Assembly: GCA_006503475.1 (NCBI GenBank)
Contig: RSEH01000305.1
Location: forward strand, 1 to 51,433
Length of the DNA: 51,433 nt
Reading direction: 5' to 3'
Origin: Stentor roeselii
Taxonomy: Eukaryota; Ciliophora; Heterotrichea; Heterotrichida; Stentoridae
Of the stretch, positions 12,104 through 39,406 are shown piece by piece; positions within the stretch are counted from its first letter, which is position 1, and each line of letters starts with the position of its first letter. The position numbers were made by a program, and so were the translations under genes. The notes under the pieces are model-generated. The model saw nothing but the letters and a program-made list of their open reading frames with translations. It searched no databases and was not told the DNA's origin.

Positions 12104-15058
12104 CTATCTTTCTCTCAACTTGAATCTATAAAGATATAAAAATGCCAGAACAACAAAGACATTAAATCCAATCATCAAATTTACCCAATCAAAACTCTGT
12201 GCCTCTTGTAAAACCAATTTCTGATTCTGAGCAACCCTATTTCCAATCCCAAATAAATCAGAACTCTCAATTTCACGATCAGAATTCTTAGAATCTAATA
12301 AATTTCCAGCAGATTCAGTCCCTTCCAGATGATTTCGATCTGAAACTGAATTAATTTCAATTCCAACTAAATCAAAGCCAGCGATTCCATTTTCAACTTC
12401 ACTCGAGTTTATTTTAACAACATAAATCCCTGAATTATGATAGACCATGAATTCAATTTCTGTTCCAGTCTCCCAAATCTTCTTCTTTTCGCCATTTTCT
12501 ATCCAAGCAGGTAGAACAAATTTTGAATTCTTGAAAGGATTCTTTATTTTTTCAGGGCAAACATTTAAAACATTAGCGAAAAAATTATCTCCTCTCTTTG
12601 CATACCCAGCGAGATGTGCGCATTCATCAGCTTTTAAAATTTTCTTATTTTTGGGTATTGTGAAAGTTTTGATTTCTTCGGCTTCTTTATCGTTCTCTAC
12701 AAATGAGTCATCTTTTCCTTGGTAAAAAATAATTGGCTGGTTTCTATGATTTATGTAGTCTTTTAGTACTTTTTCGTAGTCAAGTGCTCTGAATCCTGAA
12801 GAAAAATCATGCTCGACTTCTGAATTATCTTCTGCTATTTGCAATAGCCCGAGTCCTTCATCGTGAGTTAAACTACGATGAAGGTGTATTTGGAAGCTGG
12901 TATTATTCACAAGTCCTCCACCTATTGGAAATCCAGGAATAATGAAGAAATTAGTTGATTTAAGGTCGATCAATAAACTTCCTGCTATTGGGTGATAATT
13001 ATCAGAGACTCTATTTGAGGTTGGAGGTGTGAACACCTTTCTCATCATGTTCATTGTGTTGAAAATCAGGAACCATGGGTCATCAGATATTGGCTTTTGG
13101 AAGCGAAGGAAAATATCAGAGTTTCTTGATGGCTTTATCTTGAGTTTTATTGAAAATTTTTTAGAGTTTTTTGGAAGAAGAACTGTTTGACTGAATTTGA
13201 AGTCATTTCTTGAAAAACCTGAATATGCCATTTGAACTACTTCACCTTTGAAAATTTTGACATTGCTAAGATAGCTGGTTATATCATATTCTGTCTAAAT
13301 GCAAATTACCACTGGAGTAAAAATATAAGGCCCACTATGCTCAGTATCATAATTAATAAGTCTAGACTTACACTGATATTCAAATTCATCCTTTTTGATT
13401 GAATAAATCAGTCCATCTTTGAATACAATCTCCAAATGATCATTTTTGATAGAATTACTCTCTTCGACCTCAGACATCTGACTTGCCCCATCTTCTTTCA
13501 AAGTGATTTCCCGAATAAAATAAGTATGAAGAGTATATGGTTCAAGTTTAAGACTGAAATAAAACCTATTAGTCCCTTCCCAAGGAACCTTTTGACTTAA
13601 AATCAAATTTTCACCTGAGGAATAAACCTTAATATACTCAAAATGACTTGAAAATTCCATCAACTTTTCTCTTTTCCATCCAAGTGAGTTAAAAACAAAC
13701 ATAACTTTAACCGGTACTCCAATAGCAAAATTTGAACTATCATCTAAAAATTTTTTAGTATTTTCTTCAAAAGAGTTTTCATAATGATCTTTTAATAATA
13801 CTTTAAAACTTCGATAATAAATATTGCTGACTGTTTTCATTTCTTTTGTCAACATCTCGAAATAATCTTTGCAAACATGTGGATCGCATGTTCCTGTGAT
13901 AGCATCATGATGAGTCATTAGAGCAAGATTATAATACAAGAATTTTTCATTCAATACAATTGAACTAAGCAGCTCAGTCGCTCTTACATGTCTTTGAGTA
14001 TCGATAATTGTTTTCTTTAGTAAAGGCCTTGTTGTGTAGAACCCTACCCAAGACCTAAAGTAAGAATCAGTGGGTGCTATGTATGGAAGAAATTCTCCTT
14101 TGTATATAGAGAAGGCTTTCTTTTCTTTGTAAACTGCTTCGAAGTATTCTGAAGGTGTAGCGAAAATGTATTCATGATTTTTTGATGTACTTTTGATGTG
14201 CTTTACTAAGGAAAAGTAATCGAATGTGTTTTGGTAGTCATCGTAATAGAAATCTCCACCGATTAACATTAAATGATTGTTGGTTCGGAATTTATAGTGA
14301 GTGTTTTTTACGAATTCATCTACTAGTTTAGCGCTTTTTGTAGATTACCATGAATGCATCTGCTCAGCAGTAACTGGCAAATGATACATACAACGATTTT
14401 TGTTCCAAAAAGCAAGATCCAAAGCATCAGGTGGAGAATAATGCCCATTTAACATATGAGTGAAAATGCCTTTATTCCCTAGTCCTTCAGGCTTCCAAAT
14501 GAACTCATTATTACTCCCCATCGCAAAGAACTTCTAAATAAACTTTACCCTTATTTCAGGCTCAGCCCTTGAAAACACAAGATACTCAAACCCCATTTTG
14601 CTAAACAATGCAGCAGTTAACGAAGAATGACCAAAAGGATCAATTTGCCAAGCTATTTTGATTTTGGTAACATTCAACTCATTTTTAAGGTACTGAAACC
14701 CAATTTCCATATTACGTAGAATAAGATCAAAGTCAGGAAGAGCTTCATCATGTTGAGCCCAACCCCCTCCCACAATTTCAATTCTTCCATTTTCAATGAA
14801 ATTCTTGAATTTCTCCTTTTTTTCAGGAAACTCGTTGAAAAACAATGGCAAATAAGCAATATCACTCCAAGAGAACTTCAGTTCAGGGTCTTCATCTAAA
14901 AATCTTAGAATGTTCTGCAAGATTGACCTGGTTTGACTTCTGTAGTACTCGTCAACAGTTTTTATCCAGCCGAGATCGCAGTGGGAATGAAGAATGATAA
15001 AAACTTTGATTTTGCTATGAACCAGGTAAAGAAGACTGAGGAAGACAAGTCTGAACAT
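12104..15058 (-). CDS. MAN2B1: lysosomal-type alpha-mannosidase (GH38), four exons
   Basis: Coding joins 15058-14549, 14533-14349, 14333-13310 and 13294-12104 across three 15-nt introns, giving 969 residues. GH38 enzymes hydrolyse alpha-mannose from glycoprotein N-glycans using zinc. Residues 1-15 form a signal peptide. [16 protein letters not shown] follows with zinc ligands H26 and D28. The nucleophile is D140 in WQIDPFGHS. The second and third exons carry the GDFYYDD and HHDAITGT motifs of the family. The WIKTVDEYY form resembles lysosomal MAN2B1 rather than Golgi mannosidase II. Near the C terminus a hydrophobic helix ([18 protein letters not shown]) is followed by basic residues. This suggests a type I membrane anchor, unusual for the soluble lysosomal enzyme. 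The gene is head-to-head with a serine carboxypeptidase 273 bp away, another digestive hydrolase. Confidence 0.93.
13295..13309 (-). other. 15-nt intron (mannosidase intron 3)
   Basis: On the minus strand this reads GTAATTTGCATTTAG, with A at position 10. Left unspliced it stops the frame (TAG). Removing it joins PV to [11 protein letters not shown] in frame. Confidence 0.93.
14334..14348 (-). other. 15-nt intron (mannosidase intron 2, AAG acceptor)
   Basis: On the minus strand this reads GTAATCTACAAAAAG, with A at position 10. It ends AAG rather than TAG. It is a phase-2 intron that would introduce TAA. Splicing makes codon TGC and continues [16 protein letters not shown] into the conserved [11 protein letters not shown] segment. 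Confidence 0.9.
14534..14548 (-). other. 15-nt intron (mannosidase intron 1)
   Basis: On the minus strand this reads GTAAAGTTTATTTAG, with A at position 10. It interrupts the frame after PEIR. Removing it continues [17 protein letters not shown], as expected for GH38. Confidence 0.93.
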
Positions 15059-15331
15059 TTATAACTATGGCTGAAATTTTTCAAAGTTTTAAGGAAATTT
15101 GATTATTAAATACTGAAGTTTTTAGGTGTTGTATGAAAAATCAGGAAGAATAGTAAAAAAGTCTCAGTTTTGACTTTTTATTTAAAAAAAAAGAAGATTT
15201 AAAGAAATTGATGAAAAGGTAGACATGAATAAAAGAATAAATGTAAAAGTTTATTTAATTTTAGATAATTTTTATGTGTTTAGTCTTGTTTATTCTTAAG
15301 TTAAAACGTGAGATTGAATGAGGAAATATAA
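15059..15331. promoter_or_regulatory. shared divergent promoter region of two lysosomal hydrolase genes
   Basis: 273 bp separate the ATGs of the alpha-mannosidase (-) and serine carboxypeptidase (+) genes. Both starts are preceded directly by TATAA on their own strand. I infer that promoters of both genes lie here; no factor-binding motif can be named. Confidence 0.55.
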
Positions 15332-16663
15332 ATGCTGGTTAATTCTATTTTGCTTTTCCTGGCAAACGGAGTGATTATCAAAGATAAAATTGTGAATTTT
15401 CCAGGGTTTCCTGAGGTTCCTGCATTTGATATGTATTCAGGTTACTTGGATATCCCGAATTCTAAAGGAAAGTCGCTTTTTTATGTTTTTACAGAAAGTC
15501 AAAACAATCCAGCTACTGATCCTGTCCTTCTCTGGCTTAATGGAGGTCCTGGATGCTCTTCGTTGGCTGGTCTTTTCACTGAGCTAGGTCCTTACATTTT
15601 TATTGGCCAAGGTTTGGACCTGGTGAAAAATCCATATTCCTGGAACACAAATGCTTCAGTCCTTTTTCTCGAATCACCAGCTGGAGTTGGTTTTTCAATG
15701 ATGGGAGATGCCTCAAACAATAACACCGATGATCAAACAACAGCTCACGATAATCTTCTAGCCCTGCTACAATTTTTCAAAGGATTTTCAGAATACCGAA
15801 GTAATCCTTTTTACATCAGCGGAGAAAGTTACGCAGGTATCTACGTGCCAACATTAGCCTTATCAATCCTTAACTACAATTCCTACGCTCCTTTTTCACA
15901 GATCAACCTCCAAGGAATGGCAGTTGGAAATGCATGCACTGACTGGTCCTACGACACAAACCCTGCCTACATGAAAATGCTTTGGACTCACGGAATGTTG
16001 TCACCTTCCTGGAACTCTAAAGTAGAAGAAAACTGTCAAGATTTCAACTTTTTCACAAGTAAATCCTGCTGGGATGTCATGAACGAGATTTACAGTCAAG
16101 TAGTTCCAAATGTAAACATTTACAACATTTATGATGACTGTTATCCAGTTACAGAAACTTATGAAACCCAAAAATTTAATAAAAAATTACTTTCTTTCCT
16201 TCTAAAATCAGGAAATTTAGAAGAACTTCCAGCTTGTGTACCATTAGATGGAATAATCGATTACTTAAACAACTCAACAGTTCAAAAAGCTTTTCATGTT
16301 GATTCTTCTGTTGAAAAATGGGAAATATGTGCAAATTTAGATTATAATGAAGATTTTTTGCATGGATCATTTTATACTTATCCCAACTTAATCAATGGTG
16401 GAGTCAATATTTTGGTTTATTCTGGAGATACTGATGGAGCTGTTCCTACTATTGGCACAAGAGAATGGATTAGAAATTTAAACTTGCCGATTGTTGAGCC
16501 TTATAGGTCGTGGAGTGTTGGTCAACAAGTTGCGGGTTATACGATTTTGTACTCTGGACTCAGATTTGTATCGGTTAAGGGGGCTGGACATATGGTGCCT
16601 CAGTATAAACCTGCTGAAGCTCATAAAATGATTATGTCTTGGCTTCATGGATTCGCTCTTTAA
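15332..16663 (+). CDS. serine carboxypeptidase (peptidase family S10)
   Basis: Complete single-exon gene of 443 residues from ATG 15332 to TAA. S10 enzymes remove C-terminal residues from peptides in acidic compartments such as lysosomes and vacuoles. The N terminus is short and hydrophobic (LVNSILLFLANGV) and fits a signal peptide. The substrate-binding motif LWLNGGPGCSSLAG is at 68-81. The nucleophile is S166 in ISGESYAGIY, the catalytic Asp is probably D368 in YSGDTDGAVP, and the His is H420 in VKGAGHMVPQYKP. All three are in the normal order. Length is close to that of cathepsin A and plant carboxypeptidases. It shares a divergent promoter region with the mannosidase, which suggests joint use in food-vacuole digestion. 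Confidence 0.95.
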   Translation: MLVNSILLFLANGVIIKDKIVNFPGFPEVPAFDMYSGYLDIPNSKGKSLFYVFTESQNNPATDPVLLWLNGGPGCSSLAGLFTELGPYIFIGQGLDLVKNPYSWNTNASVLFLESPAGVGFSMMGDASNNNTDDQTTAHDNLLALLQFFKGFSEYRSNPFYISGESYAGIYVPTLALSILNYNSYAPFSQINLQGMAVGNACTDWSYDTNPAYMKMLWTHGMLSPSWNSKVEENCQDFNFFTSKSCWDVMNEIYSQVVPNVNIYNIYDDCYPVTETYETQKFNKKLLSFLLKSGNLEELPACVPLDGIIDYLNNSTVQKAFHVDSSVEKWEICANLDYNEDFLHGSFYTYPNLINGGVNILVYSGDTDGAVPTIGTREWIRNLNLPIVEPYRSWSVGQQVAGYTILYSGLRFVSVKGAGHMVPQYKPAEAHKMIMSWLHGFAL

Positions 16664-17967
16664 GATTATTAGGGTTAGTAGTTTATATGGATTTTAGTTC
16701 GATTTGGATTAGGTTTGAAGTAGAAGAAAGTGGATTTTAAATAGGGTGTTAAAATTTTTACAAAGTGTTTATAGATTTTGTTGAATTTTTAGGAAGTTTA
16801 GTTAATTTGGAATATCTTAAGAATCACAATGTTTAGGCCTATAGAAAAAACGAAGTTTAATAGCATTAAAAAGGAGCAAATACTGTACACGTATAATAAT
16901 ATCAGCTCTAAATAGTATTAGATACTGCCTATCAATTTTTCTGCTCAACCCTATTCTTCACTTTTGCTTCTTTTAATCAGCGTAAACAACAAAGGATTTT
17001 TATATTTAGATAAAACATGCAAAATAATCTGATTTTAAAATTCACAAAAGAATATTCTTAAAGCTGATGAAACAGCTCCTTAATCTACTTAACAGTGATG
17101 ATCGCAACAATTTAAAAATAGTCCTCATAGTTAACCTTTTATTCTCAGTGATACTTCCAAATATTTTATAATATTAAAGAAGATATATAACTACAAAGAA
17201 AACTAAAGGAATAATTGAAATCAAATAATGCTATTTGTAAAATATTATCATTGAAAAGAAAATATTTCCACATTCTTTACAATTCTATTCAAGTCAATGA
17301 AGAAGAACAATTAGATATTGGCAAGGCACCATCTCTTAGAAGGAAAGAAGCAGATTAAAAATTGATGAAATTACTTAAAACTGGTAACTAGACTCAATAC
17401 GTTGAAAGTAAATTCCTGCAGCTGAAAGTAAAATTTCTACAGAAAAAATAAATCCTCAAAGTAGAAAATTGATTTGAGAATCTAATCTTTAATTTAGAAA
17501 CAAGGACTTTTATCTGGAAAAAAAATTGTGAGATAAGATTACTTGAGTTTAGGAAAGTAATCAAAATAAAATATCAGAGTAGAATAAGACTTTTATAGAA
17601 GGATTGATTAGAAATTTTAATGAAAATTACTTTATTTTTATCTATAAGAAAAAATAAACAGTTAATCTTTTCCTATAAATATGATTCATAAAAGTATCAT
17701 TAATTTTCTCGATTCTCATCAATGAAATTGCATTTCTATAAAAATTTCTGAGAATTATAAAATATTACTTAAAGCCATTGGCTGTATCCTTTCATCTTTA
17801 ACTTAAATTTTATTATTTCTTGAAGCATCAAGGTGAGCATTCACTAAATTAATAAAGATAATATTAGAATAAAGTTCAATTAATTTTAGGCAGATTAAAA
17901 GAATTATCCTTAAAACTGATAAAGAATATCTAAAAAGTATTAAACTATAAAAAATCATTCAATTATC
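16664..17967. other. convergent intergenic region, no gene seen
   Basis: About 1.3 kb between the 3' ends of the carboxypeptidase and the Cys-rich membrane protein. The first 150 bases are G/T-rich on the plus strand, a post-gene skew seen elsewhere here. The rest is AT-rich with stops in all frames. No RNA gene or repeat is recognised. Confidence 0.55.
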
Positions 17968-20900
17968 CTAAGCATCTTTATTCCTCCTAGTTTCTATATC
18001 CGGAGAAGTTTGATTTCGATACTTCAAACTCGTTTTCTTATTCTTCATTTTATTGATACAATTCTTCAAACTATCCCAAACGCCGAATCCAGTGCTATAA
18101 ACCCCAATGACAAAAGCGAAAGCCCAAACAGTAAAAATAAGATAAACACAAACATAGCTCCCAGACAACGAGTCCATCAACGAGTTTTCAACCTGACTAG
18201 CAAAGACAACACAAATATAAGAAGAAATAATCAGTTCATTCACAACATGAAAGAAATTTTGAGTTGAGGACTTGAAGCACCTGGTCATTCCCACATAAAT
18301 CGAAATCTATTTAAAAATTACAGCAAGACTCATAACAAGGTGAATCGCAAGTTGAAAAGAAGGCAAATCAATCATTTGAATTAAAATAATCAAAATCATT
18401 CTCCTTCCCACAAAGCTAAAGTAAAAAAGACGACTACCACTGTTTTCTTTAAAATCTTCAAAAAAAGTAGAATATTTCTCTACAAACAAAGCGATTTCAC
18501 CTTCATCACTCATCCTAGCCCTACGTACTAAAAGAAACATCAAAAAAAAGCAGCTAAAACAATGAACAAAAATTACAAAAACCGCTAAAAAATAATCAAA
18601 AATCTCTAAACTTCCTTCTTTTTTACTGAAAATAATTCCAAAAGTCGCAGTGAGCATCATTTCAAAGTTCGCTTGAATCCAAAACCTTAAAAAAAATCCG
18701 AATTTTAAACTTTTTCTGAATTTTTCTTTGTATCTAGGAGATAAAAGACTGAGAACTACCATTGAAACAGAGCAGGTGAAAAAAATTGTTAAATGAAGTC
18801 CGAGGTTTAAAATGATTAAATTTCTTTCAAAGCCGTATTTTTCTAGTTTTTTTGTTGTGGGTTGGCCTAGGTTCAGTGGAGACATTAGAGAAAAAGGAGT
18901 CGGGATGTATTTGATTACTTTCATTCCCATCAGGAACTCGGAAAGGACTGGGTTCAGGTCTAGATTAAAGAAGTAAACCGCGTAGATCATCTCAGATGAG
19001 TTGAAAAATTCGAACATTATGAAAGGGTTTAAGTAAGTCCAGGATAGGAAGCATATAATGCTGGCGAAGATTATTGAAGTGAGTTTAGCGGTTTTATGTG
19101 ATTTCTGACCTTTTTCTTCAAGGGCTTCATTTTTTATCATTTCTTGAGTTTTTGTAAGTTTTCCAGTTAGTTTTTTGGTCTCGAGTAAAGATTTATTAGA
19201 TGATTCCAGATCTTCCAAGAACTCAACTTGCAGCAAGTCTCCAGTCTCGACAGATCTAATCACAACTTTCAAGTGGTACTCAGATAAACTAACTTCTTTC
19301 AAGCTAAACTTAACCATCTTGTCATTAACAGCAGCAGTTATCATTCCAACACTCAACGACTTTCCCAAAGGCTCTGAAAAGCTCAAATTTGCCAAATTAT
19401 TCGAACTGACCTTCATACCTGCTGAGAAGAGCCTTCTTGAGCAGTTCCCTTGAAATTCATATCCAGTTTCACATACACAAACTGAATCCAATTCACTGTT
19501 TTCAGCGCAAGTCAAACATTCAGAGGCCGATAAACAAGTCAAGCAAAGATCAGGACAGGACTGGCAAGTTCTTGTTTTTAAATCGAAATAACTTGAATCT
19601 TCACATTTTGAACAAGTCCCGTTATTTAGTTCAAAATTTTTTTTACATAAAGTGCAAGTTTTGGAATTGTAGTTCTCGCAATTTAAACAATTTTCGTCGT
19701 CACATAAATTGCAATTTTTAGAATTTTTGCAAAAAGTTGGACATTTTGAAGGACATTTCTTGCATGAACTGCTTTTTTCATCGAAGTATTCTGTGGCACT
19801 GCAGTCAGGGAGACAAGTCAGGTCTTTTGTGCAGATGGAACAGTTTGGGCATTCAGTGATTAATGATTCTGAAGGGATTACTTTTGAGAATAACTTGAAA
19901 TCATACAGAAATCCGGAAAAAGTACGGTTTTTTTCAGGGCTTCCTCCTAAAAATATGTATTTGGAATACTGATCGATATAGTAAAATGTTGAAAGGACCT
20001 CATGAGCCAAAATGAGATTGTCTATTATGAGTTTTGATTGGGTGTTAATTGAGAATTCGATACTGAAATAAAAATGCATCCATTTTTGATTTAATTCTTC
20101 TTGACTGGCGATCTGGACAACCTGCTGACCAATAAAAACCTCAGCTGAAACTTTACCCTGCTCCAAAAAGTACCTAATCAAAGAGTCCTTCACAAACAAA
20201 TCAAAACTATCCAACAAAGGTTTAACCCAAACCGTAATACAGAAACTCGATCCAATCAATAAAATTCCTGAAATATTAACCCTGAGCATATCCGATCCAT
20301 CAAAAAAGACTCCCCTCTGATAAACATTACTAACTCCAATTTTTCCCTCATCCTCCAAGACCTGCTCAGCAATGAACCCATGGACGAAATCCCTAAAAGA
20401 AATCCCAACATCTAAAAACTTAAACTCCATAATTGTCTCATTATTTTCAACAGGAATACACAAAAAATCCAACAAAACATGATCCAAAGGGCATTCATCA
20501 AGACAAGAATTGAAAAACTTAACAAACTTACAAGTCAAGCATTCAAACTGAGAAGGTCCTAAACAAGTTTCACAAGTTTCATGACAATTAATACATTCAT
20601 GACTTTCACTATCCAAAAAAAACTCTTTATTACAAAAACAAAATCCTGAAGAATTTTTAAAAGAGTTCTCATCCCAACAAGTAAGACAACTGTTGTCATC
20701 AATGCAAGTCTTACAAGTTTCATGACACTTTCTACAGTCCGGTTCATCATCAATTCCATTCAAGTTAAAAAAATTTCCAAGGCAGCGGCAAGTGCCGCTG
20801 CTGATTTCTGCAAAAGTTGACGAGCATTGACTACAGGTTAAATTTGACTCACAAGTTTTGCATGATGAATGACATGCCAGGCAACTAGAGTCTGACTTAA

Positions 20901-22548
20901 AAAATTTTTCTTTACAGTCGCAGCTGTAGTCATTGTTAGGAATCGCGTTTATGTCTTTGCATGAATTGCAAAGATAGCTACCGTCACAGGAAGTGCATTC
21001 TGTACTGCAAATCAAGCAAATGTTTGATGGGGCCAGACCGTAGCCTGACTTGCACTCGCAGCCTGAAGATGATGGAACTGCGTTTGGGTCTTTGCAGAGT
21101 ATGCAGGTCGTCCCGTTGTCGCAGGAAGAACAGGCTGAATTGCATGGATAACAGTCTCCTGAACTTAAATAGGCCTCTGGACTGCACGTGCAGCCTGAGG
21201 TTGATGAAGGAATTTTACTTGGGTTTTTGCAGGTTAGACAAAGGTTTGACTGGCTGCAAGTCTGACAATCAGAATGACAAGCAATACATGAATTAGCAGA
21301 AACCAAGTTACTTCCATAAAACCCTTCATCACAAACACATCCCTTAACACTAGAAGGCTTAGAATTCAAAGCCTTGCAAGCAGTACAAACCTTATCCTGA
21401 TTACAAGAACTACATTCACTAAAGCAAGCTTGACAAGCATCTGCAGTATTCAAATCAAAATTCACTGAAAAGTACCCATTTTTACAAGCACAAATTTTAT
21501 CACCATTAAGAAAAGCATTCAAAGCAACACAAGTTTCACAACTAGAGCCATCCAAACAAGTCGCACAAGGCAGCAGACAAGCCAAGCAACTATCAAACTG
21601 ATAATAAAACTTATCAGGACATTTACAAGATGTTGCACTAGCTGTGGCACTTTCAGGACATAAACAAGTCGGCGTTTTTGATACCATTGAGCAACTTCCA
21701 TAAGAACATTTGCATTCTAAGCAAGTTTTGGAAGAATCGCATCCGTAATTTTTGCAGCCTTTTCCACAACCGTCGCCGTTTGAATTCTTGTCGTCTTTCA
21801 TTTCTTTTGATAAACAGCCTTCTTTGGTGAAGTAAACGTCTTTTACTGATTCGGTGCAAGACTTGCACCCGACTACGAGGCAGGTACTGGAGGCGGTCCC
21901 AATGAAATCCAGATAGTTCAACAGTGAGTTGGACAGTTCAAAGTAAAAAATAAAGCCTTTATACCCTGCAACGCCCAGTCCAGCCTTTCCTAGAAAAGTG
22001 TCAAATGTTCCTGATTCTGAATAAGAAGAAGTCAAAGTCAATGACGAGGAAAGAGTTTTTCCAATATATATATTTATAGTAGAAGAAGAGTAACTCATAA
22101 AAATCAACTTCCAGGTCTTATCAGGAAAGGAGTTCGATGCTGTTTCTTTCATTGAAGAGTCGAACGAAGCACTTTTCAGGCGATATCCGAGGTTTTTTGA
22201 TGTCGACCTTTTCACAATGATGTAATTTGATGAATCTTTTTGATGGAGAAGAATGATTCCTTCTTGGTCTTCTGATAGAGACCAGACCACGAAGGAAAAA
22301 GGGGAAGATAAAGATGTTGAGGATGAGGAAAGTGAATTTGGAGGACTTTGGATGAAAGATGATCCTGAGAAATAAGCACCTCTGTCTGTGGGAACCGTGT
22401 CGAATGAGTCAGTTGATTGGGAGTCGCCGTTTATCCCGTAGTAGTTGTTACCTGACCTGTCTTTGAAGACTTGACCGAAGTTGAACCCGAAGTGGTATGA
22501 AACACTTGAAGTTAAAAAGAATATTCTCATAAAGAGCCATGGTTTCAT
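17968..22548 (-). CDS. Cys-rich (furin-like repeats), LamG-like, multi-pass membrane protein
   Basis: Coding joins 22548-18322 and 18306-17968 across one 15-nt intron, giving 1521 residues. The N terminus has a signal-like stretch (MRIFFLTSSVSYHF). Residues about 60-220 resemble a LamG/concanavalin-like sandwich. About 225-700 is a long series of CxxC..CxxC modules of the furin/growth-factor-receptor or EGF type. A second LamG-like region spans about 715-885, then more Cys repeats to about 1050. From about 1140 several hydrophobic helices follow, so the C-terminal third is polytopic. The short second exon supplies the last membrane segments (SGSYVCVYLIFTVWAFAFVIGVY) and a basic cytoplasmic tail. 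I infer a surface protein with a large extracellular region, of a type common in ciliates. Ligand and activity are unknown. Confidence 0.85.
18307..18321 (-). other. 15-nt intron near the 3' end of the Cys-rich gene
   Basis: On the minus strand this reads GTAATTTTTAAATAG, with A at position 10. Unspliced, it ends the frame at TAG after VIFK. Spliced, LAISIYVGMTRCF continues for 112 residues including two more hydrophobic segments. Confidence 0.92.
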
Positions 22549-31600: not shown

Positions 31601-31732
31601 TCAGCTACTGAAAATGAAAGTGAATGTGAAAGCAGCCAAAGCGAAGACATGGCAGTTGATATGATCTATGATGGAGAAAAAGTTTACAAGGAATATCTCA
31701 ACTTTTTGAAAAGCAGGTATTTAGTTTATTAG
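28661..31732 (+). CDS. SWR1: SWR1/SRCAP-type SNF2 chromatin-remodelling ATPase
   Basis: Single-exon gene of 1023 residues. SWR1-type ATPases exchange H2A for H2A.Z in nucleosomes as the motor of a large nuclear complex. An HSA domain (WDYLLAEMEWMSTYFEKERK, from about residue 89) for actin/Arp binding precedes the motor. The first helicase lobe carries LADEMGLGKT (Walker A, about 280), the SWR1-like GVWGPHLIVVPTSIVINWEMELKKWCPGL, and VLDEAQHIKNF (DEAQ rather than DEAH). The second lobe (about 755-880) has LRLDGSTRVEQRQ, SSTRSGGLGINLTGAD and QAQDRCHRIGQ. Roughly 200 residues separate the lobes; a long insertion there is typical of the INO80/SWR1 class and binds Rvb helicases. The protein is much shorter than yeast or animal homologues, missing most N-terminal extensions. 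Importin-beta starts 78 bp downstream. Confidence 0.93.
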   Translation: MAVNKDFEILDLSRNFPNDLPLKRVHESGDQVQSVLLKPSEKPEKSLLKPSIVDLHSHYKKVLEKSSVLKSNFGKKMPPIAEPSKNTTTWDYLLAEMEWMSTYFEKERKTKTSNAKKCLKGCQQTLKSRKDFQEKQEAEDIKLRSRIIGKICKIVQKYWKSVEKIAIHVGTLQQEEKRQQSRNKKLDRLVDKHLELSAKVAKKLVASRKPVNLVLRRVDQKWQVDEEYKFDDEEFLENYSKPLLCTPLPFMMKHSLREYQRVGLDWMVALHDKRLNGILADEMGLGKTIQTIALFAYLACERGVWGPHLIVVPTSIVINWEMELKKWCPGLKVLTYFGSQKERKMKRVGWSKFNSFNVCITSYKLVVQDQFAFKRKQWYYLVLDEAQHIKNFCSQRWQVLLKFNSKRRLLLSGTPLQNDVMELWSLLHFLMPNLFHSHQDFYDWFSSPFNSSMMENTEFSLNIIQRLHSILRPFVLRRMKKDVEKQLPDKIEHIVFCNLSRRQQFLYDEFLERRYSNKEDCVGIMNILMQLRKVCNHPDLFAPRAVASPFYMSPLKFKVNFMFVLDLKKWTFGNLSMRDDFDLVENDLLQDIIPRISKQSITSLQSLQAKVALLDPRPVRLSPFFKYDLKPIYGFRLLSKLNLNLHHFSSKTSLPLQKSLKSRLQDFSDIFYYFQTIQPKIETGSVQLDLNRNNEKSQNFQSQEKFFYSRLIPILSSFHFLLNRLHLLFPDRKSIEHDCGKLRKLSNLLSDLKREGHKCVIFTQMAKMLDILENFMNIHGHSYLRLDGSTRVEQRQRVVDLFNLDAKIFCFISSTRSGGLGINLTGADVVIFYDTDWNPAMDKQAQDRCHRIGQTRNVHIYRLISSYTIEENILKKSMQKTHLDNLVMEGGQFTTVFLQNQKTRVKEFFENIKDDELEAACQQVEDTEDQAALNLAKEEDRLDNQDFEDGQYGFLEQLDCVTQKCIEKYLEEHPVECLDSSATENESECESSQSEDMAVDMIYDGEKVYKEYLNFLKSRYLVY

Positions 31733-31810
31733 TTAGTTTTAATCAAAATCTCCATTTTTATAGTTAACACCCAAGATACCTCAGTGAATCTTCAAGTCCA
31801 ATCAGCGATA

Positions 31811-34225
31811 ATGTTAAATATCTCAGAGATCCTTCTTGACGCTCACTCTCCCGAGATTCAAAAGCGAAAACCTTCTTTAGAACTACTAAACCAACTAACC
31901 GAAAGCAACCCAGGGTCCCTTTTCACATCAATATCAATCCTTTTAAACTCCTCAGAGCCTTTCTACCTACGAAAATGCAGCGGCACATTCATAAAGTCAT
32001 CAATAACCCAAAAGTGGTTACAAATCCCAGAGTCCCAAAAACAACAAATAAAAATAAACTGCTTAAGTTCTCTTGCAAGTCCTGATAACATCACAAGTGC
32101 ATGTTTAGCGATTTCTACTCTTGCAAGTTTAGAACTTCCTGGAAATAACTGGCCTGAACTTTTTCAGATCCTTTTACAAAATTGTCATAATTCGAACCAT
32201 CATTATAAACTTGCTTCTCTTATGGCACTTAATTATATCTGTCAAGATATCAAACCGGAGTACTTTCCTTCTTCACTTAAAAATGAAATTTTAACAGCTA
32301 TTGTTGCAAACTTGAATAGTAAAGAACATGAACTCGTTTCGCATTGTTTCGATATTTTTGTTTATGCTCTTCAGTTTTTTGAAGAAAATTTTCAGGTAAA
32401 ACAAGAAAGAAAAGTGATTTTTCAGGCACTTTTTGAATGTTTTCCGATAAATCCTTATAAATGTACTCAGGCTTTTTGTGAAATAATGAATCTTTTTCCT
32501 GAGAATATTCAAGATGAGGTAGAAAAATTCGCTTTGATTACTTTTGCTGGAATTCAAAATGGAGATGAAAGTACTAAAATTTTAGCTGTTGAGATTTGGA
32601 ATACTTCGGCTGATGTTGATGAAAATAGAATGAGTTCAGGGCAGGAGCCTTTAGGGTATATCAGAAGAGTTTGCTTAGAACTGACTGATCCTCTTCTTCA
32701 AGTGTTTTTCGCTGAAGATATTCAAGAAGATAGTTGGAATTTAGGAAAATGTGTTTTTAATTTTTTTACTGCATGTTCAAGATTGTGTCCTGAAGAAAAT
32801 TGTTTCAAAGTGAATGATTTTTTAGAGAAAAATTTGAATCTTCTAGCAAGTGAAGCGCAGATCAGAGCTGGATTGACTGTTTTAAGCGCGATTACTGAGT
32901 GTCCGAGATCTGATAACTGCTGTTTTTTTGATAAATGCTTTAAAATCTGTCTGGACCTTGTTGAAAAATTCTCTGGAAAGACTCAGAAACTTGCTTTGTT
33001 AAGCTTTTCGAATTTGTTGAAAAACAGTATCTTGCAGTTATCTTCTAATGACTTGAACAGGGCTTTAACATTGCTGAAAAGTTTGATTTTTCGAAATACC
33101 TGCGACTTGAAATCGCCTTTCACTGCCCTTCAAAGTCTTTTAAAGAGTTACGGGTACAGATTTAGCATGAATGACTTTCAAGTCCTGCTTGATAACCTTT
33201 TATCTCTGATCCCTCAAAAACCTTGCAAATATGAAAAAAAAGAACAAGAAATCCTCCAATCTCTTATCAATTTTTTAGGAGAACTTCCTGATAGTTACAA
33301 TTCAATCTGTTCAAGAATTTTTCCAGAAATAACGAAAATCTTAAAACTTTCAATTTCTTCTAAAGATACTTTCTCAATCTCCAAGTTCAGTGAATTAATG
33401 AACCTTACAATTTGCCGTCTAAAGCCAGGAGGGTTATCTTTAAATGAAATTGAAATGTTATTTAAACTAGCTTTATCAGTCATTAACCAGTTCTCAATCA
33501 TCGAAGATTCATTTGGAATGATTGGAGCAATCGCTTTAAACAGTGGCAGAAACTTCGAAAATCACTACAAACACATTTCTCCAATAGTCTTACATCATCT
33601 TTCACTAGTTGACTTCCACGATACCCTCTCAGCAGCTCTGCTGCTGACAAGTGACTTAGCCCGTGCTTTAAGGATTAGAATTGTTGACTCTTTTCATTTA
33701 TACCTGCCAGCTCTTTACAATATTTTAGAAAATAACACCCTGAAGCTTTCTCATAAAGTCCAGGCAATTAATTGTTTAGGAGATTTCGCTGAAAGTGCCC
33801 AGGCTGCCATTGTTGTTCATTTGGATAAAATTTTTAAGTATGTCGATGCAGCTGCTGGTATTAGTTTGGACTTGGAAGTTGAAAGGGAAACAGGAGAATC
33901 ACTTGGTTCTTTAAGAGAAGTCATTTTACAGTTTTATTTGAGTCTTTTTATTGGACTTTCTGAATCTAAGCAACAGGGTGTTATTAATGACAGGATACCG
34001 AAACTTTCTATGTTTGTTTTAATGGTTGTTGATCAGAAGTTTAAGCCGAATATTGAAATTCATAGAAATTCGGTTTGGATTATTTCGGATATTGTTAAGA
34101 TTTGGGGAAAAAACTTGGTGTTTTTAGATAGGTTTGTTGAGTATTTGAAAAGTGTTGTTTTAGGGTTTAATGAGATCGCTGATGATGCTAGGGTTGTTAT
34201 TGGGAATATTAATTTGAGTAGTTAA
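31811..34225 (+). CDS. KPNB1: importin subunit beta (karyopherin beta-1 type)
   Basis: 804 residues from ATG 31811. The frame is open a few codons further upstream but has no ATG there. Importin-beta carries NLS cargo, with or without importin-alpha, through nuclear pores and releases it on Ran-GTP. The N terminus (ISEILLDAHSPEIQKRKPSLELLNQL..., then AGLIIKN-like CSGTFIKSSITQKWL) matches the importin-beta N-terminal region. LASLELPGNNWPELFQIL matches a conserved HEAT repeat. The whole protein is alpha-helical HEAT-like. It is slightly shorter than human KPNB1 (876). The SWR1-type gene ends 78 bp upstream on the same strand, so its promoter must lie in that gap or in the upstream gene. It converges with the PHD gene at 34439. 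It could instead be another karyopherin of the family. Confidence 0.85.
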   Translation: MLNISEILLDAHSPEIQKRKPSLELLNQLTESNPGSLFTSISILLNSSEPFYLRKCSGTFIKSSITQKWLQIPESQKQQIKINCLSSLASPDNITSACLAISTLASLELPGNNWPELFQILLQNCHNSNHHYKLASLMALNYICQDIKPEYFPSSLKNEILTAIVANLNSKEHELVSHCFDIFVYALQFFEENFQVKQERKVIFQALFECFPINPYKCTQAFCEIMNLFPENIQDEVEKFALITFAGIQNGDESTKILAVEIWNTSADVDENRMSSGQEPLGYIRRVCLELTDPLLQVFFAEDIQEDSWNLGKCVFNFFTACSRLCPEENCFKVNDFLEKNLNLLASEAQIRAGLTVLSAITECPRSDNCCFFDKCFKICLDLVEKFSGKTQKLALLSFSNLLKNSILQLSSNDLNRALTLLKSLIFRNTCDLKSPFTALQSLLKSYGYRFSMNDFQVLLDNLLSLIPQKPCKYEKKEQEILQSLINFLGELPDSYNSICSRIFPEITKILKLSISSKDTFSISKFSELMNLTICRLKPGGLSLNEIEMLFKLALSVINQFSIIEDSFGMIGAIALNSGRNFENHYKHISPIVLHHLSLVDFHDTLSAALLLTSDLARALRIRIVDSFHLYLPALYNILENNTLKLSHKVQAINCLGDFAESAQAAIVVHLDKIFKYVDAAAGISLDLEVERETGESLGSLREVILQFYLSLFIGLSESKQQGVINDRIPKLSMFVLMVVDQKFKPNIEIHRNSVWIISDIVKIWGKNLVFLDRFVEYLKSVVLGFNEIADDARVVIGNINLSS

Positions 34226-34438
34226 TTAGGGATGATGAGGATTTAAATAGATGAAGTTTAGGGTATGTGGTAATATGATGAATTTTTTATTTTAATAGAA
34301 GTTCTAGAAATACTTATAGTTCATTATTAAACAATCTACAAATCATTTAGATCACAATTATTTCCTAACTTAATCATCTCATACAAAAATCCAAAAATCC
34401 AACATCCAAATCCTTCTAAAATGATAATAAATCCCCTA

Positions 34439-36616
34439 TTAAATAATTAAACTCTGCACCTCAACAGCTGCCATTTCCAAGCTGGCACACGTTTGCAAAC
34501 ACTTCTGACAAACATACTCCTCAGGTAAATTATTAGAGTCAATGCCAATACACTTATAATGATACCACTCTTCACACTTCTCACAAAGTATCATCTTCGA
34601 GTCTTCAGTCCTCTTCAAAAAATCAGCTTCACTTTCCCAGATCCTTTTCACACTTTTTTCAACAAAAGGTTTTCTACAAATGCAATAAACTTCTTTAGTA
34701 ACAATATCTTCAACAATAACAGAATCAATTTTCTGCTGTACATAAACAACATCATTTTTCGGGAAATCAATTTTCGCGATTCTATTTTTAAGTTTTTTCT
34801 TAATTATTCCATTTTTTTTCTTTCCTTTCGGACTGAACTGAACGATAGTTTTTTTCATGATTTCCAGTTCTTTCTTCATAAGTGGGTAAATATTTTCCGA
34901 GTAAAACTTCTGACATTCAGCAGGTTTTCTTCCTTTTATTGCAAGTTTATGTTGAGTGATGGTATCAGGGTCAAGGAGGTTGTAACTTTCAGGTCGAAAG
35001 ACCTCGATTTTATTTCTGATACTTGAAGACTTGAGTTTAACCATCACTGAAAACTGTTTATTAGTAGTTTCTGATAATTTATTCACTTCACTTTCAAGTA
35101 ACTTTATCAGTTTAAGTTTTTCATCACTTGTAAAAGGACGGTCATTTGAAGTCTTTTTTAACGGCAAGGCCGAGACGAATTTAGTTCTTCTTTCAAGTCT
35201 ATCAAAGTGCTTAGCGAATGTAAAAATATCTTCAACGTATTTTTTTTCTTTGATTTCAAGAGTCCTTCTTAGTTTTAAAGGTTTATGAGCAGAGCAGTAA
35301 TAAGAAACTTCATCAGAACCTGGCTTATCTCTTGTACTTGTGAATAAGTCTTTACCGCATTCTGGGTGGAATGAGACTTGACAACGACCGAACTGGCATT
35401 GAAGACATGCACCGTCTCGTGTATTGCAAATTGAGCATTTTAACTGAAATCTTTTCGGGTCGATTTTGGTTAAGTCGATTTCATCAAGAAACTCTTTATC
35501 TTTAAATACTTCTACGTCTAAGTGAACAGCACAAAAGACATGACACCAAACTCGCTCATTTTTATTTGACTCGTAGTTAGGAAAGGACAAGTCACCAACA
35601 GTTGTGTGAATAGTTGGCTTCAAGCACCCTCCTCTTATAGGACATAAGGCACATCTTAGACTATCCCTGGCTTCTTTGCCTTGAACAGCTTTACAACCAT
35701 GACAAACCCAGTCATCTTCAGGGACTACAGGAATTCCATAGCATTTCATATGAGCACCCATTTCACAAACAGAGCAAATTACGATAAGATCATCATCTTC
35801 ATAGTCACCATCTCCACAAATATAACAAACGAAATCTTCTTCATTTTTTGGAACTTCTCTTAAAGAACTGGTCTTTTTCTCTGTATTTGAACCAGATTCA
35901 GATTCTTCTTTGATTTTACTTTCAAAGTACCTTAAATAATCTTCTAAATTGTCCTTTAAGCTAAGATCGCGAGTTTCTGCTAAGACCTGGTCTTCTTCTT
36001 TTAAGTCTTGAGGATCTTTCAGGGTGTTATTTATTTTTTCATTTGATATTTGAGAAAGTAGCTCGATTCTTGAGATTTGAAGTAAGGAAAGTTCAGATTC
36101 AATCATTTGAATGGAAAGTGGCAAGTCGTCTGACCAGCTTGTTGAAGTATTCGGAAGGAACTTCAAAGAAAGCTCTGGAAGGTTAAAGGAGACTGAAGGA
36201 AAGTACTGAGAGTTAACATTGAACCAAAAGACCTGCCCAGTGCAAATCGGGTAGACTTTATTATCAGATTCTTTGATTTTTTTAATAAAATCTTCTGAAA
36301 CCCCGACCTTATTCGTGACTTGTCTGGCAATCCAAAGTCTTTGAAGTTCTTTTCTCTTATTTTTATGCTTCTGGTGGACTTCACAGACCTGCTCTTTCAA
36401 ATCTTTCCCCTGAAAACGTAAAGAACAGTGAAGGTGAAAGGTCCGAGTGCAATCACGATGATGACATCGGATGCAAAAACCAGAGACCCCACAGAAACCA
36501 CAGCATTTTTCTTCAATACACGATAAATGGGCGAGACCTTCAGATGTGTAGACTTCCGCTGAAGCCAGATTTTCGATTTTTGATCGACAAAGGACACATG
36601 TTATAGAATTTTGCAT
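34439..36616 (-). CDS. PHD / extended-PHD chromatin reader (BRPF/Jade-like PZP module)
   Basis: Single-exon gene of 725 residues. The N terminus (1-85) is a Cys/His-rich, ePHD-like finger (CCGFCGVSGFCIRC..CTRTFHLHC). About 258-308 is a canonical PHD finger (CYICGDGD..IVICSVCEMGAHMKCYGIP..WVCHGC). A zinc knuckle (LRCALCPIRGGCLKPT) and an extended PHD (WCHVFCAVHL..CSICNTRDGACLQCQFGRCQVSFHPECG) follow. This PZP order is the hallmark of BRPF, Jade and AF10-type proteins, which read the unmodified histone H3 tail and DNA. The middle (about 485-590) is basic and partly SANT-like. About 640-705 is another PHD (YCICRKP..MILCEKCEEWYHYKCIGI). No bromodomain or PWWP is seen. I infer a nuclear subunit of a histone acetyltransferase or similar complex. 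It is head-to-head with the next gene, 123 bp apart. Confidence 0.9.
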   Translation of the reverse strand: MQNSITCVLCRSKIENLASAEVYTSEGLAHLSCIEEKCCGFCGVSGFCIRCHHRDCTRTFHLHCSLRFQGKDLKEQVCEVHQKHKNKRKELQRLWIARQVTNKVGVSEDFIKKIKESDNKVYPICTGQVFWFNVNSQYFPSVSFNLPELSLKFLPNTSTSWSDDLPLSIQMIESELSLLQISRIELLSQISNEKINNTLKDPQDLKEEDQVLAETRDLSLKDNLEDYLRYFESKIKEESESGSNTEKKTSSLREVPKNEEDFVCYICGDGDYEDDDLIVICSVCEMGAHMKCYGIPVVPEDDWVCHGCKAVQGKEARDSLRCALCPIRGGCLKPTIHTTVGDLSFPNYESNKNERVWCHVFCAVHLDVEVFKDKEFLDEIDLTKIDPKRFQLKCSICNTRDGACLQCQFGRCQVSFHPECGKDLFTSTRDKPGSDEVSYYCSAHKPLKLRRTLEIKEKKYVEDIFTFAKHFDRLERRTKFVSALPLKKTSNDRPFTSDEKLKLIKLLESEVNKLSETTNKQFSVMVKLKSSSIRNKIEVFRPESYNLLDPDTITQHKLAIKGRKPAECQKFYSENIYPLMKKELEIMKKTIVQFSPKGKKKNGIIKKKLKNRIAKIDFPKNDVVYVQQKIDSVIVEDIVTKEVYCICRKPFVEKSVKRIWESEADFLKRTEDSKMILCEKCEEWYHYKCIGIDSNNLPEEYVCQKCLQTCASLEMAAVEVQSLII

Positions 36617-36739
36617 ATATCAGTGGGTTTATTGGTGAAATGTTCGCGGGTTATGGACTAATGGAAATTTTTATGGGGACTGGAAAAGTTTTGGATGATT
36701 TAAGTTTATGAATTATTGAAAGGTGAATATATTTATTAT
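36617..36739. promoter_or_regulatory. compact divergent promoter region
   Basis: 123 bp between the ATGs of two divergent genes. The left half is G/T-rich on the plus strand, so it is A/C-rich on the sense strand of the PHD gene. No defined site is recognised. Confidence 0.45.
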
Positions 36740-37312
36740 ATGAGAGGAAATGCGAAAGTTATGAGGGTTCCTACAACACTTGCGAGGAAAGTAAGACTTC
36801 CACAAGATGCTGGGATTAAAGGAGTCTCTGAACTGCTTCACTCGATAACTCCTAATGAAAGAAGAAAAACCACGATTTCTTATCTTAAAAATAGTTCACC
36901 CCCCACCCCTGTTATTCGGCCTACTTCTGATATTGTTAGTGATTCGTCGTTTTCTAGTTATTTTCATTCGAGCTTTGTGAAACCTGAACAGAAAGGACAT
37001 GAAAAAAATAGGTTTAGGTTGTTTTCGAAGGGAATTCAGAAAAGGAATCAGATTGGACAGGCTCAAAGTGCTATGGAAAACTTTTCGAATAGGGGAAGTG
37101 ATAAAGATCATGATGAGAAAAATTTTGATTTTTCACCGATTTCGTTTGAAAATCTGCAAAATTTCAACTTTTTGATGATGAGGTCGAAAATTCCGGTTTT
37201 TAGGGAAAAAAGCTGCTTTTTGATGTCGAAGGAAGAGTTTGAAAATAAATTACCTAGACTGAAAGAAATAAAGAAACAGAAGGTGAAGATTACTAAGTCT
37301 TTGCCATTGTAA
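36740..37312 (+). CDS. hypothetical basic protein
   Basis: 190 residues from ATG 36740, the first ATG after an upstream in-frame stop at 36701; ends in TAA. I do not recognise the family. The N terminus (MRGNAKVMRVPTTLARKVRLPQDAGIKGVSELLHSI) looks ordered and helical. The rest is rich in Ser, Lys, Arg, Asn and Phe, with few acidic residues and a strongly basic C terminus (KEIKKQKVKITKSLP). There are no membrane segments or Cys motifs. A structural or nucleic-acid-associated role is possible but unsupported. Base skew agrees with its neighbours and argues that the frame is real. It is divergent from the PHD gene. Confidence 0.6.
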   Translation: MRGNAKVMRVPTTLARKVRLPQDAGIKGVSELLHSITPNERRKTTISYLKNSSPPTPVIRPTSDIVSDSSFSSYFHSSFVKPEQKGHEKNRFRLFSKGIQKRNQIGQAQSAMENFSNRGSDKDHDEKNFDFSPISFENLQNFNFLMMRSKIPVFREKSCFLMSKEEFENKLPRLKEIKKQKVKITKSLPL

Positions 37313-37518
37313 GTAAAAAGGATAAATTCATTTAAAAGTTATAATTATTGTCTTTGTGGTTCCATTCATGGTTTTTGAAATTTTGATAATTAGATTTTGT
37401 GAATTTTCTTGGTCTTCACAATTTAATCGCTTTTATTGTTGCATGATAGTTTTCATCAATTTCTTTCTAGCTTAAAGGTCCTCAAGCATTTACTTTATTA
37501 ATTCAGTTACTGTGGATT

Positions 37519-38349
37519 ATGATTAATTCTGACTTGCCCCTCAACCCCAAGTCCTCCGAAAACGAACTCTCAGTAATTCCGAATCCGATGTTACAATCCG
37601 ACTACTCAAAACTAACAAAAGAATACAACAAATCATGTTTCCACCAATCAGTCGAAAAAATAGCCAGAATAATCACCTTGAGTCCAAAGTTATATGAAAA
37701 CTTTCGTTTTCAGCCAACTTTCCTTCTACTCAAGTCAACAATCCACAGTCTATTAATGAACCCGATCGAAACAACAGTTCTTGCTCATCTACTAGACCAA
37801 ATTTTACAGGTTCCAACAAACTACACAGCTGAAGTATTTTTAATGTACAGTGGATACGCAGTAAAACAGTTCTTTTCATCAGACTTGCCTGAAATTTCAG
37901 CTTTTCTCGAAGCAAAGTTCGTGAATTTTCAGCATAATTTTGAAGAATGGGCAAAAAAAACTGGTGTTTCTCTGAACTTGACAATTGATCAGGTCCTTTC
38001 GATGTATAAGAATTTTTCTCGATTTTCAGGACTTCCTACGAATTACAATGCGTATGTTGATGAAATTTTACAGTCTTCTCCGCCTTATCAGGTTAATAAA
38101 AGGAATGAAGGGGCGAAGAAGAAGAAGAAAGGAAAGCCGAGGAAATGTGAAAGTGAGGAAAGTAGTGAAGAGTTTCTTGTTTTTAATGATTTTGGAAGGG
38201 ATTTAGCTGAACGGCAGGCTTATAGTAAGATTTGCCAGGTTTTGAATAAGGAAATCACTGGTGAAATCGATGTGCAGGAACTTGTGAAAGGGGTTTGCAA
38301 GTCGAGGAAGAAGAATAGGATTCTTGTTGAGGTATCTATGATGTTTTGA
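37519..38349 (+). CDS. hypothetical protein with a Lys-rich tract and acidic patch
   Basis: 276 residues from ATG 37519. Residues 1-190 are predicted helical (for example LLLKSTIHSLLMNPIETTVLAHLLDQIL). They are followed by a Lys-rich tract (AKKKKKGKPRK) that could be a nuclear localisation signal and an ESEESSEE acidic stretch. The C terminus ends EVSMMF. I do not recognise the family; an armadillo/HEAT-like helical adaptor is one guess. It is the only gene in the window that ends in TGA. If TGA were read through, the frame would go on about ten codons to a TAG. Confidence 0.7.
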   Translation: MINSDLPLNPKSSENELSVIPNPMLQSDYSKLTKEYNKSCFHQSVEKIARIITLSPKLYENFRFQPTFLLLKSTIHSLLMNPIETTVLAHLLDQILQVPTNYTAEVFLMYSGYAVKQFFSSDLPEISAFLEAKFVNFQHNFEEWAKKTGVSLNLTIDQVLSMYKNFSRFSGLPTNYNAYVDEILQSSPPYQVNKRNEGAKKKKKGKPRKCESEESSEEFLVFNDFGRDLAERQAYSKICQVLNKEITGEIDVQELVKGVCKSRKKNRILVEVSMMF

Positions 38350-38665
38350 AGGAGTTATTTAGGATTAGATGAGCTTAGATAGGAATATTTAACTTTTGAA
38401 AGAATTTTGAATAGGGTTTAGGATTGTGGTTTTTATATGATGAGTAAATGGAATGAATCAATTTAAGGATTTAATTATTTGATTTTTTGATTTAGGATTT
38501 GGAAGGATTAGGAAATGTTGATTTAAAGAATCTTTTAAGAAAAAACTGAAGATTAATTTCATTAAAACAATAAACAATAATATAAGTAAATATATCCCGC
38601 TTTTATTCGAAGGAATCACACTTCTTATACTAAAGATTATTTAATACTAATAATTTATTATTATA
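38350..38665. other. intergenic region between tandem plus-strand genes
   Basis: 316 bases. The first 150 are G/A/T-rich and almost free of C, the remainder AT-rich. Nothing else is recognised. Confidence 0.5.
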
Positions 38666-39406
38666 ATGATTCAGGACTTAAAAGAATCTATCAAGACTTT
38701 CAAGTTGAAATCTCTTAACACCCTGATCATCGGGTTAATTTTGTTTGGCCTGATGACTCTGATATCGAAAAAATCAAAGAAATCATCAAAAAAACCTCAG
38801 ACAGCGAATGATTATCAAGCAAAAACCAACTCATCTTCTCTATCTTCAATTCAAATATCAGAGACATACGAATTTCAGCTTTCAATAGTCAAAAGATCGC
38901 TTTTACTTGAATTACTTGAACTTATCAACTTTCAGCTCTTAGAAAAACTTGTAAATTTTAAATAGAAACCTCTTAAAGATCTGAATAGGCTGCAAAGAAG
39001 AGTTAATATCAAAGATAAGGAAAAGTACATGAAAATGATTTCTGCGGCAATTGAAGAGGAAACTAAAATCACTGATATTATCATTAATAAGGTATTAGAA
39101 GAGAGGAAGGTTCAAAGGGAAATGTTTGACTCTGCAGTAGAGATGTATAAAAATGATATCGATGTTATCAGCTTAATGGCAAAGTCAATATTTGAGCCAA
39201 CATCAGGAGTTGAAATAGGTCATCAAATCGTTGACAAGGTTTTAAAATACGAAGAAGAACACTTTTTTCACAATAATCCTATCCAGAAGTGCATCTTTGA
39301 AGATGAGATTTGGGAAATGTTTAATGTGGAAATTGGAGATGTCAGGAGTTTTGCCAAAGCCCGTAAAATAAATTTAAATAGGCTTCGACAGTGGGCGAAT
39401 TATTAA
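38666..39406 (+). CDS. small N-terminally anchored membrane protein, two exons
   Basis: Coding joins 38666-38950 and 38966-39406 across a 15-nt intron, giving 241 residues. One hydrophobic helix near the N terminus (LNTLIIGLILFGLMTLI, about 17-33) is followed at once by a Lys/Ser-rich stretch (SKKSKKSSKKP). This is the pattern of a signal-anchor with basic residues facing the cytosol. The rest is helical and charged, with likely coiled coil around RRVNIKDKEKYMKMISAAIEEETKITDIIINKVLEERKVQ. The family is not recognised. Neither exon alone makes sense, because the first would end in TAG inside the intron and the second lacks an ATG at its spliced start. Confidence 0.75.
38951..38965 (+). other. 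15-nt intron
   Basis: Reads GTAAATTTTAAATAG, with A at position 10. Splicing joins LLEKL to KPLKDLNRLQRRVN in phase 0 and removes a TAG stop. Confidence 0.9.

Follow-up and report, generated by a model that had tools for sequence, protein, structure and literature searches.

The window analysed here is the whole 51,433-nucleotide (nt) contig RSEH01000305.1 of Stentor roeselii (GenBank assembly GCA_006503475.1, positions 1 to 51,433, forward strand), part of a 44.4 Mb, AT-rich genome that uses the standard genetic code. Three of its genes appear to be interrupted by introns of exactly 15 nt, listed below with intron bases counted from the 5' end; "G2 family" is our own name for a group of predicted membrane proteins, whose description as cysteine-rich membrane proteins is our reading of the sequence.

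12104..15058, minus strand: alpha-mannosidase (GH38) gene, 969 amino acids (aa) once three 15-nt introns are removed
14534..14548, minus strand: mannosidase intron 1, GTAAAGTTTATTTAG, phase 0, in-frame stop TAG at bases 13-15
14334..14348, minus strand: mannosidase intron 2, GTAATCTACAAAAAG, phase 2, in-frame stop TAA at bases 2-4
13295..13309, minus strand: mannosidase intron 3, GTAATTTGCATTTAG, phase 0, in-frame stop TAG
17968..22548, minus strand: G2-family gene, predicted large cysteine-rich membrane protein, one 15-nt intron seen
18307..18321, minus strand: intron of the G2-family gene, GTAATTTTTAAATAG, phase 0, in-frame stop TAG, supported by homologous domains
38666..39406, plus strand: pair of open reading frames (ORFs) taken as a single gene, family unknown, 241 aa when spliced
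38951..38965, plus strand: intron of this gene, GTAAATTTTAAATAG, phase 0, in-frame stop TAG, placed by frame continuity

All five 15-mers have the form GTAA-N5-A-N3-AG. An earlier note, made from the letters alone, had placed 15-nt introns with a GTAA start, A at position 10 and an AG end at these five sites, and each was found exactly there. Its further argument, that protein continuity forces the introns, was borne out: each 15-mer, if retained, brings in exactly one in-frame stop, its removal joins the frame and leaves it open over the 40 codons inspected on each side, and paralogs cover four of the five positions. The stop is the intron's own terminal TAG in the four phase-0 cases and the TAA of GTAA in the intron at 14334 (phase 2, read as G, TAA). 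The comparisons described below confirmed that the five introns look real and of the kind known in Stentor-like ciliates; they are very probably U2-type spliceosomal introns of a Stentor-type heterotrich. The size of the genome, its AT-richness and standard code, and the 15-nt introns all agree with such a host.

The mannosidase gene matches Pfam Glyco_hydro_38N (9.9e-60) and the alpha-mannosidase II structure PDB 1hty (2.4e-64), which is presumably the Drosophila structure. The alignment of the spliced protein to 1hty passes over the junction at 14534 without a gap, has a gap three residues beyond the junction at 14334 and leaves the junction at 13295 outside. A search of the same genome with the mannosidase gave 23 matches, and the loci L032-L039 (window copy included), L040-L042 and 121 bases of L077 on C113 were compared, that is, 11 paralogs, one of them partial, with identities of about 30-67%. 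Introns occupy three fixed columns in these genes, at which five-codon insertions are either present or missing. Intron 1 has 15 nt in 9 of 11 genes, 14 nt in L040 and is absent from L038; intron 2 has 15 nt in 8 of 11 genes, is absent from L039, L041 and L042, and has 14 nt in the C113 gene; intron 3 has 15 nt in all 11 genes covering it (the window gene and ten paralogs). A stands at position 10 in every one of the 28 15-nt mannosidase introns anchored by alignment, and 27 of them contain an in-frame stop.

The length of 15 nt also emerged from a search for frame-rescuing cuts, defined as GT..AG segments whose removal eliminates an in-frame stop with at least 70 open codons on each side, in a 251 kb sample comprising the window, C1:1-150000 and C2:1-50000. 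Fourteen such cuts were found at 15 nt, as against 1-6 at each of twelve other multiples of three between 9 and 45, and 13 of the 14 had GTA and an A six bases from the 3' end (position -6). A frame-join test demanding GTA and A at -6 over lengths of 12-39 gave 19 cases at 15 nt and 0-2 elsewhere; with one case each at 13 and 14 and none at 16, it neither shows nor excludes small classes of 14- or 16-nt introns. In-frame, stop-free GTAA motifs in phase 0 within ORFs numbered 8 at a length of 15; the other lengths averaged 2.8, although 9 likewise reached 8. Stop-free motifs in phase 1 showed no excess at length 15 (7 against 9.3). Scoring the flanks by codon usage to sharpen the intron test was dropped as too weak for telling frames apart.

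The G2 family has at least 134 matches in the genome including the window copy (150 of 195 candidates were scored). These matches, found regardless of stops, contain 155 in-frame TAG, 12 TAA and 7 TGA codons, whereas 77 ORFs of at least 300 codons are terminated by TAG, TAA and TGA in 35, 33 and 9 cases, respectively (Fisher test, 7e-13, or 1e-16 when C384, with 4 TGA and 5 TAA, is left out). The intron region was read in all 20 matches with no stop and in every fourth of the 68 with one TAG (17 matches), the 35 two-TAG and the mixed matches being excluded. Among the no-stop matches, the position of 18307 holds a stop-free 15-nt intron in 13, a 14-nt intron in one and no intron in six; the one-TAG matches comprise seven with a TAG-ending intron, four with a stop-free intron, five with none and one with a 14-nt intron. 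Introns at this position can end in TAG, CAG or AAG, be absent, or measure 14 nt. A 14-nt form was suspected in the one-TAG match on C354, because this match breaks off at the intron, but the intron proved to be stop-free and 15 nt long. The intron position is kept in most, not all, of the members read, which makes the family well suited to studying how introns are gained, lost and shortened.

The guess made earlier, that stop-free introns lie hidden in ORFs, was right, since 13 of the 20 no-stop G2 domains carry one. A pair of paralogs on C1, transporter-like in our reading of the sequence, points the same way: at the matching protein position the intron at 72228 ends in TAG and that at 74921 is stop-free and ends in AAG. 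The existence of hidden stop-free 15-nt introns is thus supported, and ORF-based gene models of such genomes would silently add five residues for each.

The genome contains one U1, one U2 and one U6 small nuclear RNA above the Rfam cut-offs, with ACUUACCU, GUAGUA and ACAGAGA, respectively. As these are canonical, intron recognition should be ordinary, and the GT-AG ends are consistent with the U1 found. The 55 tabulated 15-nt introns have an AU content of 75.9%, with T at position 8 in 31, T at 9 in 41, A at 9 in 7 and A at 11 in 23. A stands at position 10 in 55 of 55, and no insertion without it was seen, a count to be read with the fact that, for 26 of the 27 non-mannosidase rows, A at -6 had been a filter of the list from which they were taken or, for L078, of a list seen before the reading. 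The proposal in the earlier note that A at 10 is the likely branch point is supported as an inference by the mannosidase introns; its wording is better changed to an A six bases from the 3' end, because 14-nt forms exist. A 15-nt intron could consist of three splice signals placed end to end, namely GTA(A), which would be bound by U1 and then U6, the A six from the 3' end, and [T/C/A]AG, and its product would be a lariat of about 10 nt with a 5-nt tail. As 15 is a multiple of three, retention of the intron keeps the frame. Splicing itself and the branch point, as well as nonsense-mediated decay as the reason for the in-frame stops, are what we infer from these data.

Five introns of 14 nt were identified in the genome:

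C142:72133-72146, plus strand: GTAAATATAATTAG, mannosidase intron 1 in L040
C113:88478-88491, plus strand: GTAAAAATAAATAG, mannosidase intron 2 in L077
C493:6046-6059, minus strand: GTAAATGTAATTAG, at the G2 position (coordinates by arithmetic from L056)
C17:47510-47523, minus strand: GTAAATATAAATAG, at the G2 position
C1:123279-123292, plus strand: GTAAGTTTAAACAG, in a SERINC-like gene

With these, the anchored introns number 60, of which 55 have 15 nt and five (the SERINC-like one included) have 14 nt; none has 16 nt, and the 16-nt motif shows no excess genome-wide. In four of the five, all but the SERINC-like case, paralogs have a 15-nt intron at the same place and the frame shifts over the segment; shortening by a single base below 15 therefore seems to be tolerated, given a strong branch context. 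For the C142 intron the length follows from the search table alone, one match ending at query residue 171 and the next starting at 172 with 14 bases between them.

The SERINC-like gene (L021, C1:122.8-124.2 kb) appears to have four tiny introns, one visible 15-nt intron, two stop-free 15-nt candidates and the 14-nt one. When the 14-nt and three 15-nt sites are removed, the protein scores 228 bits against Pfam Serinc, compared with 39.6 bits for the first frame alone. The spliced protein also aligns to serine incorporator 3 (PDB 7ru6, which we take to be the human protein), with no gap where the 14-nt intron was removed; a fragment of it had given no matches in PDB.

All five 14-nt introns fit the form GTAANNNTAAWYAG, the analogue of which fits just 7 of the 55 15-nt introns. 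As this form was drawn from the same five cases, their fit is post hoc; a genome-wide count is more independent, yet it includes those five. The form occurs 208 times at 14-nt spacing, 126 times at 13 and 96 times at 16, and the reversed-pattern controls gave 262, 251 and 201, respectively. Because the reversed controls differ in trinucleotide make-up, a codon-aware simulation was added in which coding DNA was generated by a codon chain and all other DNA by a chain with four-base context. An 80 Mb run gave expectations of 123 at 14, 124 at 13 and 115 at 16, each +/- 8, and 135 at 17; a smaller first run of 12 Mb had given 141, 155 and 111 at 14, 13 and 16, each about +/- 23. The excess is about 85 at 14-nt spacing (Poisson 1e-12, or 3e-8 with the expectation raised by two standard errors to 139), whereas spacings of 13 and 16 show none. 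Relative to the reversed controls, the count at 14 exceeds those at 13 and at 16 with P 2e-5 in either comparison. At longer spacings of 17-112 in the real 251 kb, the exact form gave 18, 22 and 29 for the classes 2, 0 and 1 modulo 3, so that the class to which 14 belongs (2) is not inflated; with a looser TAA form this class was up to 1.23-fold higher.

The 14-nt introns carry T8-A9-A10, which is about 1550 times likelier with A9 as the branch than with A10, base frequencies being assumed independent. This speaks for a branch at a constant distance from the 3' end, with a distance from the 5' site that may fall to 9, and makes A9 the probable branch point of the minor class. We regard a minor class of 14-nt spliceosomal introns of the form GTAANNNTAAWYAG, with a lariat loop of about 9 nt and some 85 members of the strict form, as likely; it would be shorter than any found in print. 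Since the U1/U6 site and the branch A would stand one base closer together in them, such introns offer a strict test of how a megadalton spliceosome could hold a 9-nt loop.

Several observations weigh against reading the 15-mers as introns. The motif GTAANNNNNANNNAG occurs 10 times in the window against 8.15 expected, a number reached by 34 of 100 shuffles, and its 10339 genome-wide matches are fewer than the 10765 of the reversed-pattern control. Motif enrichment was accordingly rejected as evidence, and of the check suggested in the earlier note, a motif search of ORFs combined with homologue alignment, the alignments revealed hidden introns and the motif count itself was at chance level. 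The ten window matches comprise the five introns, an exon at 13973, three sites antisense to long ORFs, and a site at 35905. The intron at 38951, moreover, has no homologs to support it: its spliced protein gave no matches in Pfam, and frame continuity is its sole basis. The same 15-mer recurs on C1 (C1:48024-48038) as the visible intron of a gene that we read as dynein-heavy-chain-like, in which it accounts for the one in-frame TAG. These counts are what would be expected if the 15-mers were chance GTAA..A..AG matches over true stops in wrong gene models; however, frame rescue peaks at a length of 15, and four of the five window introns are covered by paralogs, some of which lack the homologous five-codon insertion altogether, which makes this explanation very improbable. 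Read-through or recoding of the stops, which would leave five additional residues in the protein, is no easier to believe. Preservation of the frame by 15 nt would agree with this, and the 155 TAG among 165 in-frame G2 stops (C384 left out) could suggest TAG suppression, but TAG terminates 35 of the 77 long ORFs, the stop at position 14334 is TAA or TGA instead, the located stops lie in GT..AG segments at fixed columns that are wholly missing in some paralogs, and the 14-nt forms shift the frame, which read-through alone would not restore.

For the 14-nt cases, a one-base deletion in the assembly of a 15-nt intron, or decay of the gene into a pseudogene, has to be considered. GTAAGTTTAAACAG contains two runs of three bases, the C113 mannosidase shows other, scattered matches, of which some contain stops, and the genome holds clear many-stop wrecks (the C185 and C59 mannosidases and the C384 G2 copy); the frame-join scan, in which the SERINC-like intron is the sole 14-nt case, does not single out this length by itself. 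Against this, the open frames of 22 dynein-heavy-chain-like genes reach 4026-4658 aa, and their matches, 280 kb in total, are free of stops. This bounds frame breaks at about 1e-5 per base (95%), a rate at which finding five among some 900 intron bases would have P ~7e-13. Four contigs did not enter this count: C1, whose one TAG belongs to a 15-nt intron, C511, where stops occur in two rows, C339, which gave two short rows (a TAG in one of them), and C390, with an open frame of 3016. As the five cases also share one form, and its genome-wide excess lies at 14-nt spacing and not at 13 or 16, assembly errors or pseudogenes are an unlikely explanation, and we retain the interpretation of these segments as short introns.

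The origin of the in-frame stops is less clear-cut. The codon register allows a stop at bases 2-4 of a 15-nt intron in phase 2, at 9-11 in phase 1 and at 13-15 in phase 0. The stop would accordingly come mostly from the terminal TAG in phase 0, from TAA or TGA at 2-4 in phase 2 and from the branch region at 9-11 in phase 1. In the mannosidase paralogs, the introns at the position of 14334 have TAA or TGA as the stop, and three phase-1 introns with a stop (GT, AG, A at 10) were found in the 251 kb, the stop lying at 9-11 in C1:123704 and C1:60249 and at 6-8 in C2:36564. UPF1 and UPF3 domains are present in the genome, and nonsense-mediated decay is therefore possible in this host. The UPF1 zinc domain has eight matches, on C52, C515, C90, C49, C505 and C1, of which that on C52 is strong (1.1e-57); the other seven are much weaker and suggest a UPF1-like protein family. 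Alternatively, the stops could result from splice-signal preference alone, without selection by mRNA surveillance, since the consensus GTAA and TAG contain stops themselves; a sizeable share of phase-0 introns, moreover, are stop-free, ending in CAG or AAG, and are therefore invisible to ORF scans. Selection for stops is in fact far from absolute, as many G2 introns are stop-free: 17 of the 24 sampled 15-nt introns at the G2 position (13 of 13 in no-stop and 4 of 11 in one-TAG matches, in a sample leaning towards stop-free introns). In 10 of the 17 one-TAG matches, furthermore, the TAG was not located as an intron end, a status that is presumed there. In contrast, TAG ends are found in 18 of 20 phase-0 but in 3 of 8 phase-2 mannosidase introns (Fisher p 0.009, the paralogs not being independent), and intron 3 of L042, which ends in AAG, nevertheless has an in-frame TAA at bases 4-6. 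Signal preference alone thus remains a serious candidate, if a somewhat doubtful one. The phase-dependent origin of the stops provides a ready test of whether mRNA surveillance shapes frame-neutral introns.

Introns of 15 and 16 nt in Stentor coeruleus are described in PMC9505925, which cites Slabodnick et al. 2017. The published set of 8806 introns contains 8173 with 15 nt, 633 with 16 nt and none shorter; A is at position 10 in 8005 of them and at 11, again six from the end, in most 16-nt introns, and the AU content is 75.63% (PMC9505925). The features shared with that species are the 15-nt length, GT-AG ends, A at 10, about 76% AU, the standard code, and the U1 ACUUACCU and U2 GUAGUA sequences; in contrast to its 15 and 16 nt, we found five 14-nt and no 16-nt introns among the 60 anchored. 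As introns 15 nt long with A at 10 have already been published for Stentor, the core finding on the window introns is known in kind, and the 14-nt class would be the part that goes beyond it.

Similar lengths are known from relatives. Introns of Blepharisma stoltei, whose compact, gene-dense macronuclear genome is 41 Mb in size, are predominantly 15 and 16 bp, so that the main intron length is shared; unlike Blepharisma, in which UGA encodes tryptophan, the genome studied here uses TGA to terminate genes (9 of the 77 long ORFs) (PMC9942806). Heterotrich introns are stated to be about 95% 15 bp, the remainder being 16, and those of Loxodes magnus, from the sister group of heterotrichs, are likewise very short but have a mode of 17 bp, a negligible share below 16 bp and a depletion of lengths divisible by three (3n) (PMC11441545). 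The 16/17-nt introns of mikrocytids fall in an equally narrow range at the short limit, yet these are unrelated rhizarian parasites with introns one to three bases longer (PMC10245619). Enrichment of in-frame stops in short 3n introns is common to Paramecium, other ciliates and the genome studied here; other ciliates, however, avoid 3n lengths in most length classes, whereas most introns here are 3n and the stop signal varies by phase (PMC5014332). A 2025 paper counts the 15 nt of Stentor among the shortest introns known (PMC12316389). A literature search for 14-nt or shortest introns found no heterotrich intron below 15 nt; supplements were not covered, and published length plots could hold some. 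The published floor of 15 nt would thus not hold here, on the DNA evidence of the five 14-nt cases and the genome-wide motif excess.

Apart from the five introns, two of the ten motif matches in the window lie within genes read on the minus strand:

13973..13987, minus strand: exon, motif match only, GTAAGAGCGACTGAG, reading VRATE in the mannosidase, gapless alignment to paralogs
35905..35919, minus strand: stop-free in-frame motif match in a PHD-finger gene, candidate intron or exon, outside the gene's Pfam domains

Further along the window, a chitin synthase gene at 45904-48090 is read as one ORF, in which stop-free introns would not show; this agrees with the single-exon chitin synthases described for heterotrichs (PMC10946202). 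Just downstream of this ORF, at 48179-48319, lies a tandem array of 4.2 copies of a 33-bp unit.

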